A model generated the notes under the pieces. That model had not been told where the DNA came from. It saw only the letters and a list, made by a program, of their open reading frames with translations, and did no database searches. Below, piece by piece: positions 3,188 to 33,762 of a DNA stretch of 64,000 bases (position 1 is its first letter; each line of letters starts with the position of its first letter). The stretch spans positions 4,588,001-4,652,000 of the forward strand of contig NZ_CP081943.1 of NCBI RefSeq assembly GCF_020423045.1, in the 5' to 3' direction. The translations under genes and the position numbers were made by a program. Source of the stretch: Pseudomonas sp. MM213. GTDB lineage: Bacteria; Pseudomonadota; Gammaproteobacteria; Pseudomonadales; Pseudomonadaceae.

Positions 3188-5308
3188 TTACTGACGCACC
3201 CTACGCTTGCGACGATTGATCAGTACCAGCGCAATGCCCGTAACTGCCACGACAGCGCCCATTTCCAGCCACTTTTTGTAAGGTCGCAACGTCGCGCGGA
3301 TCGGACTCAATGCCTGGGTGACATAGCGTTTGTCTGCATTATGGAAATCCGGATAAGGGCACCGCTCGCCGAAGAATAATGCCCAATCCACGTAGGGACC
3401 TTCTTTGACATAGCGTTGATAGAAAGCGCTTTTCTCCTCCTGACCCGTGTTCCATCCCGCCGCCGCGCAAAGCACCGCCGCAAAGGCCTGACTGGTATGT
3501 GGCAAGTAATCAGCGGCGCGACTGGCCAAGGCATTCGCGACATAACGGTAATGGAAACGCTGATCGGGTTGAGCGGCACTGGCCTGTTGGCGCCTGACCT
3601 CCTCTTCAGCCACCAATGGACCGACCTTGAGTTCGTTGCTTTCAAGGCTGTAATTGCCCCCGAACGTCGCGTAATCCGGGGACATCTCGTAGCCCAAGAG
3701 CTCCATCCCGCTGAAACGGGCCAGCGTCGCGGCATTGTAGTAAGCGAAGGCACGTTTGCTCGGCCACCATTTCGATTCGGCGTCGTGGCGCAACTCCCCG
3801 TACGACTTGGCCTGATGGTGCAACGTCTCGCTGTCGAAGTACGCGGGCGCCTCGTCATAACGGCCCTCACGCAACAAGCGCCGCCCCAGCAGGTTGCGCA
3901 ACTTCGCCGCCACCGACAACGGCACGTAGTTATCGCGATCCTGTTGAGTCAGTGCTGGCGGCGCCGGCACCTGGGTGTCGACGTAATGCTTGAGTTCATC
4001 GACGGTCAGCACACGCTCAGCGACGGTCGCGGCGTCGAACCAGTAAATGTCGTTGCTGCGATAAAGCTGATCGAATGCCTGCAAATAATCCCCACGTTGC
4101 AACGCCAGGATCGCGCTTTCCCCCTCGACGCGGCACTTGGGCTGAAGCGTTTCGAAATCCCAGTCCGGTGTCCGTCGCTCGCCCCAGGATTCGTTCTGCG
4201 GGAAGGCCTGGGCAGCCTTGGCGTACGCGGCGGCGGCAGCCGTTTTATCACCCTCGCGCATCGCCAGTTTCGCCCGTAGCCACCATGCCAGGCCACCGTC
4301 ACCGGCGTGTTCAAGAAATGCCTTGGCGCTGGCGTAATCGCCCTGTTGATAATTCACGGCCGCCAGTCGATCAGCATTGTCGAGGCTGCCGCGCGTGCTG
4401 TTTTGCAGCAGTTTGATCAGTTTTTGTTCGTTTGGCGGTTGATCACCAAATGACCAACCCAACCGGCTGATCAGTGACGCCGTGACCAGCTGCTGCACCG
4501 GTTTGCCTTTAAGCAACGCGGCCAGTTGCTCGTCGGGCATCGCCGCCAGATCGGCCATCAACAGCTTCAATGAGGTGTAACCCACTGCGGAACCGTGGAG
4601 GTTTTGCGTGGCGTAGAGTTTTATAGCGTTGTCCCAATCGCCCGCCGTGCGAGCGACACGCGCCTCTTCGCCGAGGCTGGCGACGCCCAGCTCCAATGGG
4701 TCGCTGAAGCCGTCGATGCTCAACTGGCGCGCCTGCTCAAAGGCCTTGCGCGACTGCATCAGCAGATCGGGCGCGGCGTCCGCTTCGCTGCTCATGGCAA
4801 ACAGCGCCCGGCCCAGCGAATAAGCGGCCCACGTGCTGCGTAACGCGCGTTGATCCGCCGGCAATGCGAGCACTTTCTGGAAGTAATCGGCGGCCAATCC
4901 ATGGTCACCGGCGCTGAACGCCACGGCGCCTGCCAGATAGAGCCTGTGCTCGGTCGGCAAGCCTGCGCCCTGCGCCTCGACCTGGTGAGCATCGCTCAGC
5001 GTGCGCAGTTCTTTGACCAACGCCTGCTGCTGCGCCGTCAAACCAGCCTGTTCGGCGTCGTCGCGCTGCACGGCATAGTCAGGCGCGTCCATGCTGTAGA
5101 CGACTTCGCTGACGTTCTTCAACCCCGTAATCGCTTGCCCGAGACGACTGATCTCGAACCGGAAGTTGCCTTCCGGCAGCTCCGCCAGCGACTGGCCCCG
5201 GTTGTCGAGCAGGCGCATGGGGAAATCCGGCCCGCAGGCCACTGCCGAACCCAGTGGAAAACCGAGGCTCAGGCAAAGCAAATGGCGGGGCCAGTTACGG
5301 GTGAACAT
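3188..5308 (-). CDS. Secreted, C-terminally anchored helical-repeat protein of unknown function
   Basis: 706 residues from the ATG at 5308, which has a strong AGGAGG site; the open frame extends 50 codons further upstream but that part overlaps the neighbouring lipoprotein gene and lacks a ribosome site. N-terminal signal peptide MFTRNWPRHLLCLSLGFPLG followed by SAVAC, a possible lipobox. The middle is alanine/leucine-rich with helical TPR- or Sel1-like periodicity (phrases such as AAAAYAKAAQAFPQNESW and ALQRGDYLQAFDQLY). A single transmembrane helix (GAVVAVTGIALVLI) and a basic tail RRKRRVRQ end the protein. It probably lies in the periplasm, held to the inner membrane. It overlaps the DUF3142-type lipoprotein gene by 14 bases, so the two are surely cotranscribed. 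Function unknown. Confidence 0.78.
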   Translation of the reverse strand: MFTRNWPRHLLCLSLGFPLGSAVACGPDFPMRLLDNRGQSLAELPEGNFRFEISRLGQAITGLKNVSEVVYSMDAPDYAVQRDDAEQAGLTAQQQALVKELRTLSDAHQVEAQGAGLPTEHRLYLAGAVAFSAGDHGLAADYFQKVLALPADQRALRSTWAAYSLGRALFAMSSEADAAPDLLMQSRKAFEQARQLSIDGFSDPLELGVASLGEEARVARTAGDWDNAIKLYATQNLHGSAVGYTSLKLLMADLAAMPDEQLAALLKGKPVQQLVTASLISRLGWSFGDQPPNEQKLIKLLQNSTRGSLDNADRLAAVNYQQGDYASAKAFLEHAGDGGLAWWLRAKLAMREGDKTAAAAAYAKAAQAFPQNESWGERRTPDWDFETLQPKCRVEGESAILALQRGDYLQAFDQLYRSNDIYWFDAATVAERVLTVDELKHYVDTQVPAPPALTQQDRDNYVPLSVAAKLRNLLGRRLLREGRYDEAPAYFDSETLHHQAKSYGELRHDAESKWWPSKRAFAYYNAATLARFSGMELLGYEMSPDYATFGGNYSLESNELKVGPLVAEEEVRRQQASAAQPDQRFHYRYVANALASRAADYLPHTSQAFAAVLCAAAGWNTGQEEKSAFYQRYVKEGPYVDWALFFGERCPYPDFHNADKRYVTQALSPIRATLRPYKKWLEMGAVVAVTGIALVLINRRKRRVRQ

Positions 5309-24656: not shown

Positions 24657-25301
24657 TCATGCCGTGCGGCGCAGTATCAGCAGATGGCGTTGGCCTTGGC
24701 AACCAGGTACGGCCAGGGCGTGTTCGCTATCGAGGTGGAAGTCTGCCGGCAATGCTACCAGCTCATCGGCCGGATGAACGCCCTTCATTGCCAGCCAACG
24801 TGTATCGGCGTCGCCAAGGTGGCGCGTCCAGTTGCTGAAGTTCTCCATGCTGCTGAACGCCCGGGAAATGATCCCGTTGAAAGGCTGTGCAGGCTGGAAG
24901 GCTTCGACGCGACTGTGGATAACTTGCAGGTTATCCAGTTTGAGTTCGAGTTTGACCTGGGTCAGGAAGCGGGTTTTCTTGCCGTTGCTGTCCAGGCAGG
25001 TCACTTGGGACTCTGGAAACAGGATTGCAAGCGGAATGCCCGGCATGCCGCCGCCGCTGCCAACGTCCAGCCAGCGACCGTTTTCGATGAACGACATCAC
25101 GCTCAAACTATCGAGCAGGTGACGCGAGACCATTTCGTCCGGATCGCGCACGGCGGTCAGGTTGTAGGCCTTGTTCCATTTGATCAACAGGGCCAGATAA
25201 CCCAACAACTGCGCGTGCTGGGTTTCGGTCAATGTGACACCGAGCTGGCGAGCACCTGTGGATAACTCTTCGGCGTGTTGCGAGGTGACCAACGAACTCA
25301 A
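24657..25301 (-). CDS. rsmG: 16S rRNA (guanine527-N7)-methyltransferase
   Basis: 214 residues starting at TTG (25301), whose last two bases plus the next form the mnmG stop (TTGA overlap of four bases, 25298-25301). A GGAG eight bases upstream supports this start. SAM-binding motif [17 protein letters not shown] (about 73-89) and the [12 protein letters not shown] motif (about 137-148) are present. It methylates G527 of 16S rRNA. Formerly called GidB. Confidence 0.95.
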
Positions 25302-27196
25302 GCGCTTTGCTCCAACTGACGGCCCGCGCCGCGTTTTTTCAAATGAATCATCAACAGCGAAATGGCTGCCGGTGTGACACCCGGAATGCGTGACGCCTGG
25401 CCCAGTGTTTCTGGACGGGTCGCACCGAGCTTGCTCTGGATCTCTTTGGAGAGACCGGAAATGTTCGTGTAGTCGATATCCACAGGCAGTTTCGTGTCTT
25501 CGCTCGCCCGCAGACGTGCGATTTCATCTTGCTGACGATCGATATAACCGGCGTATTTGGTCTTGATTTCGACCTGCTCGGCGACTTGTGGATCTTCTGC
25601 GCCCCCGCCAGTCACGGCGATCAGACCAGCGTAGTCGATTTCCGGACGGCTCAAGAGGTTGAGCAGGTTGTATTCGTGAGTCAGCGGCGTGCCGAACTTC
25701 TCGGATATCGCGTCGCCCTGCTCGGTGCCGGGGCGAACCCAGGTACTTTTCAGGCGCTGCTCTTCCAGCGCGATGCTTTCGCGTTTGGTGCAGAACGCCG
25801 CCCAGCGCGCGTCATCCACCAGACCCAACTCGCGACCTTTTTCGGTCAGGCGCAGGTCCGCGTTGTCTTCACGCAAGATCAGACGGTACTCGGCGCGGGA
25901 TGTGAACATCCGGTACGGCTCTTGAGTTCCAAGGGTAATCAGGTCGTCAACCAACACGCCGATGTACGCCTCGTCGCGACGCGGGCACCAGGCGTCTTTG
26001 CCTTGCGCACGCAGTGCAGCGTTGGCCCCGGCCAGCAAACCCTGGGCGCCGGCTTCTTCGTATCCGGTGGTGCCATTGATTTGCCCGGCGAAAAACAGAC
26101 CGCCGATAACTTTGGTTTCCAGGCTGTACTTCAGGTCACGCGGGTCGAAGTAGTCGTACTCGATGGCGTAGCCCGGACGCACGATGTGCGCGTTTTCCAT
26201 GCCGCGAATCGATTGCACGATCTGCAATTGCACGTCGAACGGCAGGGATGTGGATATCCCGTTCGGGTACAGCTCGTGAGTGGTCAAACCTTCCGGTTCG
26301 ATGAAGACCTGGTGGCTTTCCTTGTCGGCAAAGCGGTGGATCTTGTCTTCGATCGACGGGCAGTAACGCGGGCCGATACCTTCGATCAACCCCGCATCGG
26401 AATACATCGGCGAACGGTCGAGGTTCGCTGCGATGATTTCGTGGGTCCGGGCGTTGGTGTGGGTAATCCAGCAGCTGACCTGTTTCGGATGCTGCTCTTT
26501 GGAACCCATGAACGACATCACCGGGATCGGCGTATCACCGGCTTGCTCGGTCATCACCGAGAAATCCACAGACCGACCGTCGATACGCGGCGGCGTACCG
26601 GTTTTCAATCGGCCAACACGCAGTGGCAATTCGCGCAGACGGTGAGCCAGGGCGATCGACGGCGGATCACCGGCACGACCGCCGGAATAATTCTGCATTC
26701 CGATGTGGATAAGTCCACCGAGGAAGGTGCCAGTGGTCAACACCACGGAGTCAGCGAAGAAACGCAGGCCCATTTGGGTGACAACACCACGCACTTGTTC
26801 CTGTTCAACGATCAGGTCATCAGCGGCTTGTTGAAATATCCACAGGTTGGGCTGGTTTTCCAATGCTTCGCGGACAGCGGCCTTGTACAGAACCCGGTCT
26901 GCCTGGGCGCGGGTTGCACGCACGGCCGGGCCTTTGCGGCTGTTCAACACGCGAAACTGAATGCCGCCTTTATCGGTAGCCATGGCCATCGCGCCGCCGA
27001 GGGCATCGATTTCTTTTACCAAGTGGCTTTTGCCGATCCCGCCGATGGCCGGGTTGCAACTCATGGCACCGAGGGTTTCCACGTTATGCGTCAGCAACAG
27101 GGTTTTTGCCCCCATACGTGCTGAGGCCAGTGCTGCCTCGGTACCGGCATGACCGCCGCCGATGACGATCACTTCAAAACGGGAAGGGAAATCCAC
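25298..27196 (-). CDS. mnmG: tRNA uridine-5-carboxymethylaminomethyl modification enzyme MnmG (GidA)
   Basis: 632 residues. FAD enzyme that acts with MnmE on the wobble uridine of several tRNAs. Two GTG codons stand in tandem; the second (27196) gives the usual N-terminus [15 protein letters not shown] and lies six bases after GAGG, so it is preferred over 27199. FAD Rossmann motif [14 protein letters not shown] (about 13-26), the conserved [15 protein letters not shown], and the C-terminal tRNA-binding helical domain ([25 protein letters not shown]) are visible. It opens directly beside the second origin-like region. Confidence 0.97.
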
Positions 27197-27304
27197 CACG
27201 CACCTCGTGCCTGCTTAAGTAGGTAATTCAGGAATAGTTTGAGCTCAGGTTTTTGGACCTGGTCGACAAGTATAGGGACTTCGCCCTTCCTAAAGAAGCC
27301 TTTG

Positions 27305-27611
27305 CACAAAATTTAACCAGCTGTGGAGAAGTCGGGGTTATAGAAATTAAAAAGAAAGAAATTTATTAAATCTTTGTTTTTATGTTTATTTCTACTGAGC
27401 ACCATTTCTGTGGATAGATTCGTACAGCCCTTTGTTTTCAATATGTACAGAGAATCAAAACCCTGTGGTCATGTGCCAATGAGGCCCTTGGATAACCGGT
27501 GTAAGCCTGTGGATGAAAGGGGTGGTTATCCACAGAGGCGGTTATCTTCAGTTTTGAGGCCCTGTTATCAACTGCCCTTAGCGGCAGTTATTCACAGGGC
27601 TTAATCCACAG
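27305..27611. other. Second origin-like region (oriC2 type) between mnmG and mnmE
   Basis: The 550-base gap between mnmG and mnmE has no plausible gene. An AT-rich stretch at about 27305-27400 (A/T runs around TTAAAAAGAAAGAAATTTAT) is followed by DnaA-box-like 9-mers: TGTGGATAG at 27409, TGTGGATGA at 27508, exact TTATCCACA at 27526, TTATTCACA at 27588 and TAATCCACA at 27602. The block aligns with the rpmH-dnaA region at a constant offset of 4493 bases (see findings). From 27612 to 27746 there is only a further TGTGGACAA near 27729. Origin activity is inferred. Confidence 0.72.
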
Positions 27612-27746
27612 AAAAGCAGCGATTGATCAAATCCCGGGCGCAGAAAATCCGCCCAGGCAGAAAGAATCTGCTCGGCACTGGAGGCAATTCAGGAAAAGGG
27701 GGAGAACAGACAGGCGCGAATGGCCTGTCTGTGGACAACGATAGGG

Positions 27747-29117
27747 CTATTTGCCGATACAGAAACTGGAAAAGATCCGTCCCAGCAGGTCATCGGAGCT
27801 GAATGCACCGGTGATCTCGCCCAAGGCATGTTGAGCCTGGCGCAAATCTTCGGCCAGTAGCTCACCGGCACCCGCCAGCGTCAGCTGCGCACGGCCGTGC
27901 TCGAGGGACGCACTGGCATGACGCAACGCCTCAAGGTGACGCCTGCGAGCACTGAAGCTGCTTTCCGACGTCTGCTCATAGCCCATGCAGGCCTTGAGAT
28001 GATCACGCAGCAGTTCCAGGCCTTCGCCAGCCGACTTGGCACTCAGGCTGATGGTCACATGGCCATCCTCACTGACTTCCAGGGCAATTGCTTCGCCAGT
28101 GAGGTCGGCCTTGTTACGGATCAACGTGACTTTCGCCGGATCCGGGCGGGTTTCCAGGAACTCTGGCCACAACGCGAACGGATCAAGCGCTTCCGGTGCG
28201 GTGGCATCGACCACCAACAGCACTCGATCAGCTTCGCTAATGGCTTTCAACGCCCGTTCAACACCGATTTTTTCCACATGGTCATCGGTATCTCGCAGAC
28301 CAGCGGTATCTACCACGTGAAGCGGCATGCCATCGATGTGGATATGTTCGCGCAAAATGTCACGGGTGGTGCCGGCAATCTCGGTCACGATCGCTGCTTC
28401 ACGACCCGCCAGTGCGTTGAGCAAACTGGATTTACCGGCATTTGGCCGACCGGCGATCACCACCGTCATGCCGTCACGCAGCAACGCACCCTGCCCGGCT
28501 TCGCGCAGCACGGTGGATAACTCTTCCCTGACTTTGTCGAGCATGCTCAGTACATGGCCATCGGCAAGGAAGTCGATTTCTTCTTCCGGGAAGTCGATGG
28601 CCGCTTCTACGTAAATCCGCAGGCCGATCAGTTGCTCGGTGAGGTTATGCACACGATCGGAAAATGCCCCCTGCAAGGAGCGCAATGCATTGCGGGCGGC
28701 CTGTGCAGAACTGGCCTCGATCAGGTCGGCGATTGCTTCGGCCTGTGCCAGATCGAGTTTGTCATTGAGGAACGCACGCTCGCTGAATTCACCTGGTCGT
28801 GCCAGACGGCACCCCAGTTCAAGGCATCGCTTGAGCAGCATGTCGAGAACAATCGGGCCGCCATGGCCCTGGAGTTCCAGCACATCTTCGCCGGTGAACG
28901 AGTTCGGGCCCGGGAAATACAAGGCAATGCCCTGGTCCAGGACCTCTTCGTTTTGATCGAAAAACGGGCCGTAGTGGGCGAATCGCGGCTTGAGTTCACG
29001 ACCGCTGAAGGCCTTGGCCGCAACGCTCGCCAGCGGCCCGGAAATACGGACGATGCCTACGCCGCCACGACCTTGAGCGGTGGCGACGGCGGCGATGGTT
29101 TCACGAGGAGCGCTCAT
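27747..29117 (-). CDS. mnmE: tRNA modification GTPase MnmE (TrmE)
   Basis: 456 residues from the ATG at 29117 ([21 protein letters not shown]); an in-frame TTG further upstream is less likely. N-terminal folate-binding domain (about 1-118), helical domain, and an inserted Ras-like G domain (about 215-380) with [24 protein letters not shown] and NKAD. The C-terminal CIGK tetrapeptide (SFCIGK) is intact. Partner of MnmG. The upstream yidC terminator (29150-29174) implies its own promoter or read-through. Confidence 0.97.
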
Positions 29118-29149
29118 AAACCGGTATCCAGACAAAAGTGACAGATAGC

Positions 29150-29174
29150 AAAACGCCCCACTAGGGGGCGTTTT
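29150..29174 (-). terminator. Terminator after yidC
   Basis: AAAACGCCCC (29150-29159) pairs with GGGGCGTTTT (29165-29174), flanked by A/T runs. It lies 23 bases past the yidC stop, before mnmE, and could also stop transcripts in the opposite direction. Confidence 0.92.
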
Positions 29175-29196
29175 GAGTGGTTATCCACAGTGTAAA

Positions 29197-30882
29197 TCAG
29201 GCCGCTGCTTTAGTAGCCGCTTCGATTTTACGAGTGATGTACCACTGTTGGGCGATGGACAGGCAGTTGTTCACTACCCAGTACAGCACCAGACCAGCCG
29301 GGAACCACAGGAAGAAGAAGGTGAAGATGATTGGCATCAGCTTCATCACCTTGGCCTGCATCGGATCCGGAGGAGTCGGGTTCAACTGCTGCTGGATGAA
29401 CATGGTTGCACCCATGATGATCGGCAGAATGAAGAACGGATCCTTGATCGACAGGTCAGTAATCCACAGCATGAACGGCGCTTGGCGCATTTCAACGCTT
29501 TCCAGCAGAACCCAGTACAGCGAGAGGAAAACCGGCATCTGCACGAGGATTGGCAAGCAACCACCCAGCGGATTGATCTTCTCTTTCTTGTACAGCTCCA
29601 TCATGGCTTGCGACATTTTCTGCCGGTCATCGCCATGTTGCTCTTTCAGTGCGGCCAGTTTCGGTGCCACTGCGCGCATGCGGGCCATGGATTTGTAGCT
29701 GGCTGCCGACAGCGGGAAGAAAATCCCTTTGATCAGCATGGTCAGGAAGATGATCGACCAGCCCCAGTTACCGACCAGCGCGTGGATGTGTTGCAGCAGC
29801 CAGAAGATTGGCTGGGCAATGAACCACAGAATGCCGTAGTCGACGGTCAGTTCCAGACCTGGGGACAACTCTTTCAGCACAGCCTGGCTTTTCGGACCGG
29901 CGTACAGAACAGCGCTGGTTTCGGCTTTCGCACCTGGCGCAACAGTCATTGCCGGGGCGGTGTAGCCGATGATGTAGTTGCCTTTGCTGTCTTTACGGGT
30001 CTGGACGACGTTGTTTTCGCCCTTCGCCGGAATCCATGCGGTCACGAAGTAGTGTTGCAACCAGGCAACCCAACCACCGTTCACGGTTTCTTTCAGCTGA
30101 GCCTTGTCCATGTCCTTCATCGACACTTTCTTGTACGGCTCGTTACTTGTCCACAGGGCGGCGCCCAGGTAAGTCGCGGTGCCGGTGGCAGTGCTGGAAG
30201 AAGGATCGGAGCTGGCGTCACGCTTCAGTTGGGCGAACATCGCACCCGACCAAGGCTTGGCGCTTTCGTTGTCGATCACGTAGGAAACGGTTACGTCGTA
30301 CAGGCCACGTTTCAGTGTGAAACGCTTGATGTAGTTGACGCCGTCCTTGCTGAACTTCAGGTCTACAACCAATTGGTCCTGACCGTCGGCCAGTTGGTAG
30401 ATCTTCTTCTCGGAGGAGTAAACCGGACGACCGGCAGGACTTGCGTCCGGACCATCGGTACCGATCAAACCGCTTTGAGCCAGATAAGTCCGCTCGTTGC
30501 CGTTATCGAACAACTGGAATGGAATTTCCGGATGGTCCTGGCGACGTGGATACAGCGGCAGAGTCAACTGTGCAACATCGCCACCTTGTGGATCGATAGC
30601 CAGGTTGAGCACATCCGTTTTGATCTGGATGAGGTCTTTGCTTGCAGCTACTGGTGTTTCAGCAGGTGCAGTGGCACTGGTATCGCTTGCGGCGCGCGGA
30701 ATGTCGTCACTGACAGAAGCATTATTGCCAGTCGCCGTATCCGGTAGGCCCGGTGCGGTAGTACTGGAAGCAACATTCTGAGTCGGCAGGGCAGCCTGGC
30801 CATAGTCCTGGTTCCATTTAAGAACCATAACGTAGGACACGATTGCCAGGGCGACGATCAGGATCGTGCGTTTGATATCCAT
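29197..30882 (-). CDS. yidC: Membrane protein insertase YidC
   Basis: 561 residues. N-terminal transmembrane helix (IKRTILIVALAIVSYVMVLKW, about 3-23), a large periplasmic beta domain (about 60-340), then the conserved five-helix insertase core (NWGWSIIFLTMLIKGIFFPLSAASYKSMARM near 370-400; the hydrophilic-groove Arg is in this region) and a basic C-terminus. It inserts and folds inner-membrane proteins such as AtpE. Two bases after yidD. Confidence 0.97.
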   Translation of the reverse strand: MDIKRTILIVALAIVSYVMVLKWNQDYGQAALPTQNVASSTTAPGLPDTATGNNASVSDDIPRAASDTSATAPAETPVAASKDLIQIKTDVLNLAIDPQGGDVAQLTLPLYPRRQDHPEIPFQLFDNGNERTYLAQSGLIGTDGPDASPAGRPVYSSEKKIYQLADGQDQLVVDLKFSKDGVNYIKRFTLKRGLYDVTVSYVIDNESAKPWSGAMFAQLKRDASSDPSSSTATGTATYLGAALWTSNEPYKKVSMKDMDKAQLKETVNGGWVAWLQHYFVTAWIPAKGENNVVQTRKDSKGNYIIGYTAPAMTVAPGAKAETSAVLYAGPKSQAVLKELSPGLELTVDYGILWFIAQPIFWLLQHIHALVGNWGWSIIFLTMLIKGIFFPLSAASYKSMARMRAVAPKLAALKEQHGDDRQKMSQAMMELYKKEKINPLGGCLPILVQMPVFLSLYWVLLESVEMRQAPFMLWITDLSIKDPFFILPIIMGATMFIQQQLNPTPPDPMQAKVMKLMPIIFTFFFLWFPAGLVLYWVVNNCLSIAQQWYITRKIEAATKAAA

Positions 30883-30884
30883 GA

Positions 30885-31130
30885 TTACTCGGCCATCGAA
30901 GAAGAACGGGAGGTAGGGATAGGTGGAACCGGGTCATAACCACCGGGATTCCACGGATGACAGCGACCTAAACGACGAAAGGTCAGCCAGCCACCGCGCA
31001 GAAGGCCATGATTTTCTATGGCTTCTAACGCGTAGCAGGAACAACTGGGGTAGAAACGACAGTGACTGGCCATCAGAGGACTAATGGCATAGCGATAAAA
31101 CTGGATCGGAACGAGTGCCAGTTTACGCAT
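30885..31130 (-). CDS. yidD: Membrane protein insertion efficiency factor YidD
   Basis: 81 residues. Small membrane-associated protein with the family motif [22 protein letters not shown] (about 18-39, three conserved Cys) and [24 protein letters not shown]. Helps YidC. Its start overlaps the end of rnpA by eight bases. Confidence 0.95.
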
Positions 31131-31524
31131 CTGGACTGTCTACCCCTACAGTTTCGGTTTTGACTGCTGGTACCGGCGTGCTGCGTGCCAGACGCTTCCA
31201 GAGTTTGCCGAAATGCTGAATCAATTCGGGGTTTTCTACGTCACCCAAACCTTTGCGCGCGACGATAACGATATCCCAGCCGACCAGTGAATCCTGGTTC
31301 AGACGGAACGATTCGCGCATCAGACGTTTGAGGCGATTGCGCTCGACGGAGAGCTTTACGCTCTTTTTCCCGATAACCAGCCCTAGACGGGGGTGATCTA
31401 GATCGTTGTTGCGCGCAAGGAGCAGGAGATTTTTCCCCGGAACCTTGCCGGTAGGGGAGTCAAAGACTGCCTTGAAATGCCGGGGAGTAAGCAGACGCTT
31501 TTCCCGACTGAAGTCCTGACTCAC
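31123..31524 (-). CDS. rnpA: Ribonuclease P protein component
   Basis: 133 residues from GTG at 31524, giving the usual Pseudomonas start [21 protein letters not shown]; the frame is open further upstream but would run into rpmH. The GGAG lies directly against the GTG, so initiation is unusual and perhaps coupled to rpmH. RNA-binding motif [14 protein letters not shown] (about 61-74) is intact. With the RNA subunit it matures tRNA 5-prime ends. Sixteen bases after rpmH. Confidence 0.92.
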
Positions 31525-31540
31525 CTCCAGTGCCGGCTTA

Positions 31541-31675
31541 TCAAACTGCCAGACGCGCACGACCTTTGGCGCGACGACGCGACAGAACGGCACGACCGTT
31601 CTTGGTAGCCATGCGAGCACGGAAACCGTGGGTACGAGCGCGTTTGATAGTGCTTGGTTGGAAAGTACGTTTCAT
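31541..31675 (-). CDS. rpmH: 50S ribosomal protein L34
   Basis: 44-residue basic protein translated from the ATG at 31675: [20 protein letters not shown] at the N-terminus and a final KGRARLAV, the standard L34 sequence. First gene of the rpmH-rnpA-yidD-yidC cluster transcribed leftward from the oriC region. Confidence 0.97.
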
Positions 31676-31789
31676 TGTCGTGTTACCTGGTTCGTCCACA
31701 ACGGGCCGGAATGGCCCCCGTTTTAAGAGACCGGGGATTCTAGAGAAAGCAAGCCTCTAGGTCAATTTCCAACCAACGTTTCCTTATAA

Positions 31790-32175
31790 ATAGATCTCCA
31801 GACGTTTTGCTCGTCTTCACCTCCAGCCAAATATAAAAATAAAGAAGGAAAGTATTTAAAGCTTTTCTGTAAAGCTTATAAAAGCTAGGACACCGATCAT
31901 CTGTGGATAACTACCTTCAGACCTTCTATCCCGTGATGTACAGAGAATGACAACTACGGTGGAAAACGGTGGTCAGCCTGTGCTGCGCTGTCGGATAAGC
32001 TGTGTGTGAAAGGGGCTGTTATCCACAGGCAGGTTATCCACCGAGTTTCGCCCCCACTTGTGCAACGACCTCAAGGGCGGTTATCCACAGAGCTTATGCA
32101 CAGACCACTGGTCGTCTTTTTTACCTATAAAACGTTGATTCTTCTTGGTCAGTGAGCCACCTACGTGTGGATAAG
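31790..32175. other. oriC: Chromosomal replication origin oriC (rpmH-dnaA gap)
   Basis: The 566-base gap has no gene. AT-rich unwinding-element candidate at about 31785-31890 (ATATAAAAATAAAGAAGG and TTATAAAAGC). DnaA boxes: TGTGGATAA at 31902, TTATCCACA at 32019, TTATCCACC (one mismatch) at 32034, TTATCCACA at 32081, TTATGCACA (one mismatch) at 32094, and TGTGGATAA at 32166. The position between rpmH and dnaA is the known origin location in Pseudomonas, and transcription on the two sides mostly diverges from here. From 31676 to 31789 lies the leader of rpmH. Confidence 0.93.
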
Positions 32176-32196
32176 TCGGCGTCTGGTCGCTACAAT
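32166..32196 (+). promoter_or_regulatory. Candidate dnaA promoter overlapped by a DnaA box
   Basis: TACAAT at 32191-32196 is a good -10. The place of its -35 (about 32168-32173) falls inside an exact DnaA box (32166-32174), so DnaA binding would block RNA polymerase: a classic autorepression layout. The -35 itself is poor. The GTG start of dnaA is about 45 bases further on. Confidence 0.5.
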
Positions 32197-32241
32197 GGCC
32201 GCTTGTTTTTGCCTCACCGGCTTTCAACTTAGGGGATATCC

Positions 32242-33762
32242 GTGTCAGTGGAACTTTGGCAGCAGTGCGTGGAGCTTTTGCGCGATGAGCTGCCTGCCCA
32301 ACAATTCAACACTTGGATCCGTCCACTACAGGTCGAAGCCGAAGGCGACGAGTTGCGTGTCTACGCACCGAATCGTTTTGTTCTCGACTGGGTCAACGAA
32401 AAGTACCTGGGCCGCGTCCTTGAACTGCTGGATGAGCATGGCAACGGCATGGCGCCGGCGCTTTCCTTATTAATAGGCAGCAAACGCAGTTCGGCTCCAC
32501 GGGCTGCCCCGAATGCGCCACTGGCTGCCGCCGCGTCTCAGGCACAGGCGGCTCAAGCGTCTGTCAGTGCTCCGGCACCTGCCCCGACGGCCACACCGAC
32601 CAAGCGTTCGACACAGAAAGTTGCCGAAGTCAGTGAAGAGCCATCGCGCGACAGCTTCGATCCGATGGCTGGCGCCAGTTCTCAACAGGCCCCGGTGCGT
32701 TCCGAGCAGCGCACCGTGCAGGTCGAAGGTGCGCTCAAGCACACCAGTTACCTGAACCGCACTTTCACCTTCGAGAACTTCGTCGAAGGTAAGTCCAACC
32801 AACTGGCCCGGGCTGCGGCCTGGCAGGTGGCGGACAACCCCAAGCACGGTTACAACCCGCTCTTCCTTTATGGCGGTGTTGGCTTGGGTAAAACTCACTT
32901 GATGCACGCTGTGGGTAACCATCTATTAAAGAAGAACCCGAATGCCAAGGTCGTGTACCTGCATTCGGAGCGTTTCGTGGCCGATATGGTCAAGGCTCTG
33001 CAACTGAACGCGATCAACGAGTTCAAGCGCTTCTACCGTTCGGTGGACGCATTGCTGATCGATGACATTCAGTTCTTCGCCCGCAAGGAACGTTCGCAGG
33101 AAGAGTTTTTCCACACCTTCAACGCCCTGCTCGAAGGTGGCCAGCAGGTCATTCTCACCAGTGACCGCTACCCTAAAGAAATCGAAGGCCTTGAAGAGCG
33201 CCTCAAATCCCGCTTCGGCTGGGGCTTGACGGTAGCCGTCGAGCCGCCGGAGCTGGAAACCCGTGTCGCGATCCTGATGAAAAAGGCCGACCAGGCCAAA
33301 GTCGATCTGCCCCACGACGCGGCGTTCTTCATCGCCCAACGTATTCGCTCCAACGTCCGTGAGCTGGAAGGTGCGCTTAAACGCGTGATCGCCCACTCGC
33401 ACTTCATGGGCCGCGATATCACCATTGAGCTGATTCGCGAATCCCTGAAAGATCTGTTGGCGCTGCAAGACAAACTGGTCTCTGTGGATAACATTCAGCG
33501 CACTGTCGCCGAGTACTACAAGATCAAGATTTCCGACCTGCTGTCCAAGCGTCGTTCACGCTCGGTCGCTCGTCCGCGTCAGGTTGCCATGGCGTTGTCC
33601 AAAGAGTTGACTAACCACAGCCTGCCGGAAATCGGCGATGTGTTTGGCGGCCGCGACCACACAACTGTTTTGCACGCCTGCCGCAAGATCAACGAACTTA
33701 AGGAATCCGACGCGGACATCCGCGAGGACTACAAGAACCTGCTGCGTACTCTGACAACTTGA
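32242..33762 (+). CDS. dnaA: Chromosomal replication initiator protein DnaA
   Basis: 506 residues starting at GTG (32242). Domain I ([23 protein letters not shown], about 2-24); a long Ala/Pro/Ser-rich domain II linker (about 85-165); AAA+ domain III with Walker [14 protein letters not shown] (about 212-224) and Walker [10 protein letters not shown]; domain IV with the DNA-binding signature [15 protein letters not shown] (about 470-484). An exact DnaA box (33483) lies in its own reading frame. Confidence 0.98.

Follow-up and report, generated by a model that had tools for sequence, protein, structure and literature searches.

Bacteria are taught to replicate their chromosomes from a single origin, and the distance of the Escherichia coli origin from dnaA is an old question. 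The 64-kb stretch of the Pseudomonas sp. MM213 chromosome analysed here (C1:4588001-4652000 in a 6.75 Mb genome; hereafter the window) raises the question of whether one origin can be present twice, as the initial annotation had described two paralogous origin modules in two intergenic gaps of the gene order mnmG(−), gap, mnmE(−), yidC(−), further genes, rpmH(−), gap, dnaA(+). The nearest matches to the yidC protein of the window, at 99% identity, are from Pseudomonas species. The module in the mnmG-mnmE gap is called U and that in the rpmH-dnaA gap is called D. As judged from sequence, the two modules are paralogous, have their parts in common in one register, and are both kept up in nearly all Pseudomonadaceae examined. 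The reading favoured here, which we consider probable, is that a single gammaproteobacterial origin module, about 250-290 bp long, is present as two copies, U and D, with D as the main origin and U as a weaker second one.

All landmarks named in the initial annotation were found at its coordinates and at a U-D offset of 4493 throughout: TGTGGATA (27409/31902), TGAAAGGGG (27514/32007), TTATCCACA (27526/32019), TTATTCACA at 27588, which pairs with TTATCCACA at 32081, and a 13-mer that has only these two copies within 26000-33000. At this offset, a gapless match from 27407 has 106 of 190 bases identical (binomial P = 1.5e-19, uncorrected for the offset search), and the runner-up among the 1000 offsets tested (4000-4999) has 72 identities, at 4491, followed by one with 71, which bears out the claim of a gapless register over about 200 bases. 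In the pairwise alignment that had been proposed as a check, the gapped local score of U against D is 69, where 500 dinucleotide shuffles have a mean of 20 and a maximum of 29, and the reverse complement also reaches 29. When every 9-mer within two mismatches of a DnaA box is excluded, 63 of the 117 remaining columns still match (P = 2.4e-11). The AT-rich parts, said to align at about the same offset, are alignable and need small gaps. The fixed offset of 4493 holds within the window; among relatives, however, the U-D distance is not conserved, only the register inside the modules. When up to two mismatches are allowed, 76 of the 131 D modules and 49 of the 100 U modules have the shared 13-mer, which is no DnaA box; in the remaining modules it is more diverged.

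As listed in Table 1, the two modules have the same layout when read from the mnmG or rpmH side, which consists of an AT-rich element, DnaA-trios, a reverse box (R1) and forward boxes at +117 and +179, positions being counted from R1. Among all 50-bp windows of the 64 kb, the one starting at 27339 in U is the least stable (50.3 kcal/mol) and the one starting at 31831 in D ranks second (53.8 kcal/mol), compared with a median of 76.7 kcal/mol; with 80-bp windows, U ranks first in instability and D third. Both copies have the AT-rich unstable element beside a box array that is expected of an oriC. The basal unwinding system described in PMC8287927 consists of a DnaA box, a spacer, for which the program of that work allows up to 16 bp, and trios with a conserved middle A. 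The same box, short spacer and trios in fixed phase are present here twice, once in each window copy. The trios (TAR) appear as YTA on the top strand, with further positions in 3-nt steps in relatives. In the family, 65% of 100 U modules and 69% of 131 D modules have the trio start at exactly 14 nt from R1, compared with 1-7% at 13 or 15 nt.

The box array is likewise common to both copies. Of 99 U and 130 D modules, 99% and 94%, respectively, have a box within one mismatch of the consensus at +117 (±1), and 94% and 99% have one at +179. The share of perfect boxes in U and D is 36% and 72% at R1, 79% and 68% at +117, and 2% and 82% at +179. The description of one copy as having mostly degenerate DnaA boxes was too strong, since in window U the +117 box is perfect and the other three (0, +99 and +179) each differ from the consensus by a single mismatch.

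A sequence-only profile built from 27 Pseudomonadaceae modules was used to scan the genome, where 150 of 586 first-look candidates were scored. Two strong sites, U and D, were obtained; the next were the reverse strand of U at E 0.02 and a site at E 0.26. Whole-genome searches of 17 further genomes each placed the best profile site next to the start of mnmG or dnaA.

Across the family, each copy can be recovered from the other by untrained searches: with the window U core as the query, D was found in 115 of 132 family regions, and with the window D core, U was found in 95 of 100 (E<1e-3). With a merged profile at the strict family cut-off of E<1e-10, two modules were found in 76 of 80 named Pseudomonas loci, and the remaining four do not span both sites (contig end in L037, L045 and L055; no mnmG in L058). 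Among the 52 other family loci at this cut-off, 41 have two modules, 7 have one and 4 have none. Of these last 11, nine have mnmG outside the locus, so that U is unreadable there; in three of the nine (L178, L179 and L207), whose modules are very AT-rich (GC 20-22%), D is seen at a looser cut-off. Where mnmG was read, U is present in 98 family loci and absent from two. Absence of the mnmG-mnmE copy in relatives, named at the outset as the observation to look for against a duplication kept in place, is seen within the family only as the loss of U from two genomes, G167 and G173, beside those 98 loci. The mnmE-mnmG gap is 243 nt in G173 (L195, 10106-10350) and 72 nt in G167 (L202, 10087-10160), where the D module is also weak (32 bits). 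A U match in G173 came from a profile trained on G173 itself and was not borne out by later profile searches.

All 117 U-D pairs (76 + 41) are on the same strand, and the distance between the two modules ranges from about 4.3 to 9.2 kb; in the 76 named loci it is about 4.5 kb in 42 and about 8.5-8.6 kb in 19. Wherever both were read (98 family loci), the U centre lies 250-334 bp from the start of mnmG, and U lies more than 1 kb from mnmE in 11 of these loci. Because U stays beside mnmG wherever mnmG was read, the mnmE side is an apparent insertion hotspot. In 26 of the 76 named Pseudomonas loci the modules are 6.3-8.6 kb apart, compared with the usual 4.5-5 kb or so, and in L070 (9208-13201) genes for a TonB-dependent receptor, FecR and a sigma-70 type factor are found in the additional DNA that separates mnmE from U. 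Across 43 U-gap sequences, conservation drops at the right edge of U (27620) from 0.87 to 0.61; across 79 D-gap sequences, there are dips at 31796-31836 and 32116-32156. When the conservation profiles of the two modules are compared at different lags, the highest correlation (0.41) is at zero lag.

Over 100 family genomes, U and D form separate clades, with the best split 97% pure, and the nearest neighbour is of the same type in 195 of 200 cases. The duplication is therefore older than most of the radiation of the family, and the earlier claim of an old origin duplication kept under constraint is supported both by this split and by the reciprocal core searches. The identity of U with D is 51.8% within the same genome and 48.0% between distant genomes, and 86 of 100 genomes lie above the latter; later U-D exchange within genomes is possible.

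Outside the family, one copy or the other is usual. In this typing, matches with E>1e-4 or shorter than 120 nt were removed before counting. Of 75 genomes of the same order, 43 have a module at mnmG only, 23 at dnaA only, 6 at both and 3 at neither; in the 64 genomes in which both sites are readable, the corresponding numbers are 37, 20, 5 and 2. Typing with two family profiles instead gave 30 with U, 20 with D, 4 with both, 19 with none and 2 partly unreadable. Several U assignments are at E 1e-6 to 1e-4 (e.g., L098, L121, L128, L264, L375 and L376). The two-copy genomes outside the family are G007, G050 and G085 of one family, G073 and weakly G130 of another (the D match of G130 being partial, E 3e-5), and G103. 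Mapped onto a MnmG-DnaA-YidC tree reduced to 86 typed tips, the three copy states require 13 parsimony changes, where 1000 label shuffles have a mean of 38 and a minimum of 31; on the order tree, the minimum number of changes is 10 for the presence of U and 8 for the presence of D. In one part of the tree, a U-only and a D-only family form a group whose sister is a two-copy family (support 1.00 and 0.91).

The Pseudomonadaceae profile also matches the E. coli origin, with model positions 2-249 of 255 on L159 4739-4991 (E 7.5e-11), which spans nearly all of the annotated oriC (L159 4745-4976). The E. coli search covered the oriC and rpmH-dnaA stretches, and no profile match was found in the latter. 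Five box-preserving shuffles of the E. coli site scored E 0.31 or worse. Like U, E. coli oriC lies on the mnmG side and has an AT-rich part, a reverse first box and forward boxes in this order; like the Pseudomonadaceae modules, it has TAA 14 nt from R1. For the E. coli boxes R1, R2 and R4, the R1-R4 distance of 180 bp agrees within 1 bp with the 179 bp in Pseudomonadaceae, whereas R2 is at +106 instead of +117, a shift of 11 bp or about one helical turn; the E. coli spacing of 0/106/180 is therefore not reproduced in Pseudomonadaceae (0/117/179). The initial annotation had the scope too narrow, as the profile extends to E. coli oriC and two-copy genomes are found in three further groups of the order; inside the family, there are two losses of U.

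Among further genomes of the class, a module is located at mnmG in G259, G320, G409 and G479, with E. coli-like box spacing in G409 (106/178) and G479 (107/181). On the 3' side of dnaA, a match in reverse orientation was obtained in 14 of the 30 class genomes readable there (E 4e-23 to 6e-6), with looser spacing, which provides a lead to the dnaA-dnaN side as a third address. The strongest out-of-order match, L347:2509-2748 in a distant class genome (G249; 80 bits), is also in reverse on the dnaA 3' side. No profile match was found in 38 of 58 class genomes, many of which were read at mnmG only.

The distant matches were compared with shuffled sequences. Box-preserving local shuffles of the outside-family matches reach E<1e-3 in 14 of 320 cases and full local shuffles in 0 of 320, and the real sequence outscores its five box-preserving shuffles in all 64 outside-family cases. 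Among 93 reversed sequences, there were no profile matches. A gapless-diagonal test outside the family gave nothing clear, so that profiles are needed at this distance.

The roles of the two copies can be proposed from their structure. DnaA bound at the first box and at the +117/+179 array would extend onto the trios on one strand and would then open the AT-rich element, a sequence of steps suggested by established work on DnaA. D is probably the main initiation site, because its first and last boxes are stronger than those of U and because the intervening genes run away from D, so that forks from D are co-directional with these genes and forks from U would meet them head-on. U would be a conserved, weaker putative origin that may fire infrequently, in a backup role, or when DnaA levels differ. 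Carrying two copies would be an intermediate condition, from which related lineages moved the origin from dnaA to mnmG, or the reverse, by dropping one copy. In E. coli, the rpmH-mnmE genes occupy the + strand at 3.884-3.888 Mb, with oriC at 3.926 Mb, so that forks from oriC towards dnaA meet these genes head-on, unlike the Pseudomonas forks from D, which are co-directional with them. This conflict would fit a departure of the origin from the dnaA side at a time when the direction of the genes was already set.

Part of this picture has precedents. According to PMC4403523, P. aeruginosa has two elements capable of autonomous replication (Yee and Smith 1990; Smith 1991), and a functional study of two putative P. 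aeruginosa origins (Jiang 2006) is cited in PMC4285127, PMC4403523 and PMC3642087, in agreement with the earlier remark that the existence of two origins may be known. That system has two origin-active sequences in one Pseudomonas species. The P. aeruginosa elements, oriI and oriII, may correspond to these two gaps, and the copy on the dnaA side is reportedly the one that is needed. DnaA boxes near gidA in P. putida are said to have been noted in 1989. The characterised P. aeruginosa oriC adjoins dnaA (PMC3642087), the E. coli score in the basal unwinding work is relatively weak and E. coli oriC is separated from dnaA (PMC8287927), and a possible ancestral cluster of origin genes has been discussed (PMC2099444). 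In the literature searched (titles and the beginnings of abstracts, most subscription journals lying outside), no description of the paralogy of the two Pseudomonas gaps or of origin switching between mnmG and dnaA was found, and the available portions of PMC5124646, PMC5098823, PMC4588119 and PMC6275241 added nothing on either. The two-origin idea is already known; the register-level paralogy, the upkeep, the likeness to E. coli and the switching pattern are added here. The Pseudomonas origin motif TTCTGTGGATAGA given by an origin tool (PMC7174414, Table 1) is present in 45 of 73 loci for the mnmG copy and in 4 of 119 for the dnaA copy, and origin databases may mix U and D copies in their annotation.

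Table 1. Features of the two modules and neighbouring genes, in window coordinates; box positions are relative to R1.
Feature	Position	Strand	Remarks
mnmG (gidA)	25298..27199	-	NCBIfam TIGR00136
mnmE	27747..29135	-	NCBIfam NF003661; start codon as given by the open reading frame listing
yidC	29197..30882	-	NCBIfam NF002352
rpmH	31541..31675	-	NCBIfam TIGR01030
dnaA	32242..33762	+	NCBIfam TIGR00362
Module U	27330..27620	+	upstream of mnmG; profile match C1:4615350-4615602, E 5.3e-44
U unwinding element and trio start	27330..27408		YTA 27392-27394, 14 nt left of R1
U box R1 TGTGGATAG	27409..27417	-	1 mismatch
U copy of shared 13-mer ATGTACAGAGAAT	27443..27455	+	+34 from R1
U box +99 TGTGGATGA	27508..27516	-	1 mismatch
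U box +117 TTATCCACA	27526..27534	+	perfect
U box +179 TTATTCACA	27588..27596	+	1 mismatch; perfect in 2/99 family U modules
Module D	31823..32113	+	rpmH-dnaA gap; profile match C1:4619841-4620095, E 7.8e-41
D unwinding element and trio start	31823..31901		YTA 31885-31887, 14 nt left of R1
D box R1	31902..31910	-	perfect
D copy of shared 13-mer ATGTACAGAGAAT	31936..31948	+	offset 4493 from U copy
D box +117	32019..32027	+	perfect
D box +132 TTATCCACC	32034..32042	+	1 mismatch
D box +179	32081..32089	+	perfect
D box +192 TTATGCACA	32094..32102	+	

Other features of the window were also recorded. The sequence TTATNCACA has 37 copies in the 64 kb (5961-61000, both strands), where 0.55 are expected from shuffles, and 172 copies genome-wide, about one fifth of which are in 1% of the chromosome; this cluster may be a DnaA-binding cloud around the origin. 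A perfect DnaA box is located at 29181-29189 in the short mnmE-yidC gap, just after a visible inverted repeat, which is missing from the list of the terminator scan. The promoter and terminator scan of the window gave nothing beyond the chance level, and a skew profile of the window in 4-kb steps was too flat for placing a replication start.

Several results weigh against the proposed pair of a main and a weaker origin, or against its extension to distant relatives. U appears to be dispensable, as no profile match to it was obtained in G167 and G173 even at E 1; these two genomes are taken as recent U losses inside a two-copy family. The +179 box of U is imperfect in 97 of 99 family modules, which also fits decay. 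Neither module stands out from its gap in mean conservation, with 0.856 for D compared with 0.867 and 0.851 in its flanks, and 0.888 for U compared with the higher value of 0.923 in its left flank; the right flank of U (0.662) is the sole clearly lower one. The codon-position strand skew of yidC and mnmE did not separate D-type from U-type genomes after correction by mnmG and dnaA. Because the identity of U with D is just above that between distant genomes, the age of the duplication and gene conversion are inseparable. Deep and backbone branches of the species tree are weakly supported in places. When the boxes are masked, only 14 of 64 outside-family matches stay at E<1e-3 and the E. coli match is lost; the distant match is not due to the boxes alone, yet they carry much of the signal. 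Single profiles detect E. coli oriC at E 2.5e-9 with D and only at E 0.0017 with U, and plain nhmmer with the merged profile, which is less sensitive than the profile search used for typing, does not recover it.

The alternative that survives best, although we regard it as unlikely, is that U is a DnaA-binding control site, either the decayed remnant of an origin, retained as a sink or sensor of DnaA, or a DnaA-regulated element of the mnmG promoter. The tie of U to the mnmG start in its 98 family loci, with mnmE more than 1 kb away in 11, would be expected of such an element, and the loss of U from two family genomes is also compatible with it. The last box of U departs from the consensus by varied substitutions (TTATTCACA in 48 modules, TTTTCCACA in 17, TTATCAACA in 11, and others), which fits weakened binding. 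However, a sink or a promoter has no need of a trio phase of 14 nt or of DNA that is the most unstable in the region, both of which U keeps. Moreover, U is the sole module found in 43 of the 75 outside-family genomes, where it should be the origin if the profile finds origins.

It is improbable that U and D are the halves of one bipartite origin looped together via DnaA. Their close spacing, the same orientation in 117 of 117 pairs and the richness of both in DnaA boxes agree with this arrangement, and the bipartite oriC of Bacillus subtilis or Helicobacter pylori likewise has two box clusters near dnaA. In known cases, however, the unwinding element is in one subregion only (PMC4285127). Unlike in those species, U and D each have their own unwinding element, and the spacer between them comprises several genes and is variable, from about 4.3 to 9.2 kb; in addition, most related genomes show a single module. 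Convergence, in which the same DnaA-binding layout evolved in both gaps without common descent, is very improbable: DnaA binding and unwinding do constrain spacing, and box masking removes 50 of the 64 distant matches, but more than half of the non-box columns match, box-preserving shuffles mostly fail, U and D are each a family-wide clade, and their conservation profiles are correlated at zero lag.

The reading of U and D as paralogous origin copies has a broader form, which is possible and to which we give somewhat less than even weight. A movable gammaproteobacterial origin module of about 250 bp would have a few fixed addresses, would copy itself and would then lose the old copy, and most Pseudomonadaceae would be maintained with two copies, either of which could be used. 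If this is true, the addresses are upstream of mnmG (E. coli and many Pseudomonadales), the rpmH-dnaA gap (other Pseudomonadales) and, reversed, the dnaA-dnaN side (other gammaproteobacteria), and E. coli oriC would lie away from dnaA because its lineage kept the mnmG copy. With nearly all members of the family carrying two copies and sister lineages carrying one, natural intermediates are at hand and the move of an origin becomes testable. The pattern suggests how a bacterial origin can change its chromosomal address.

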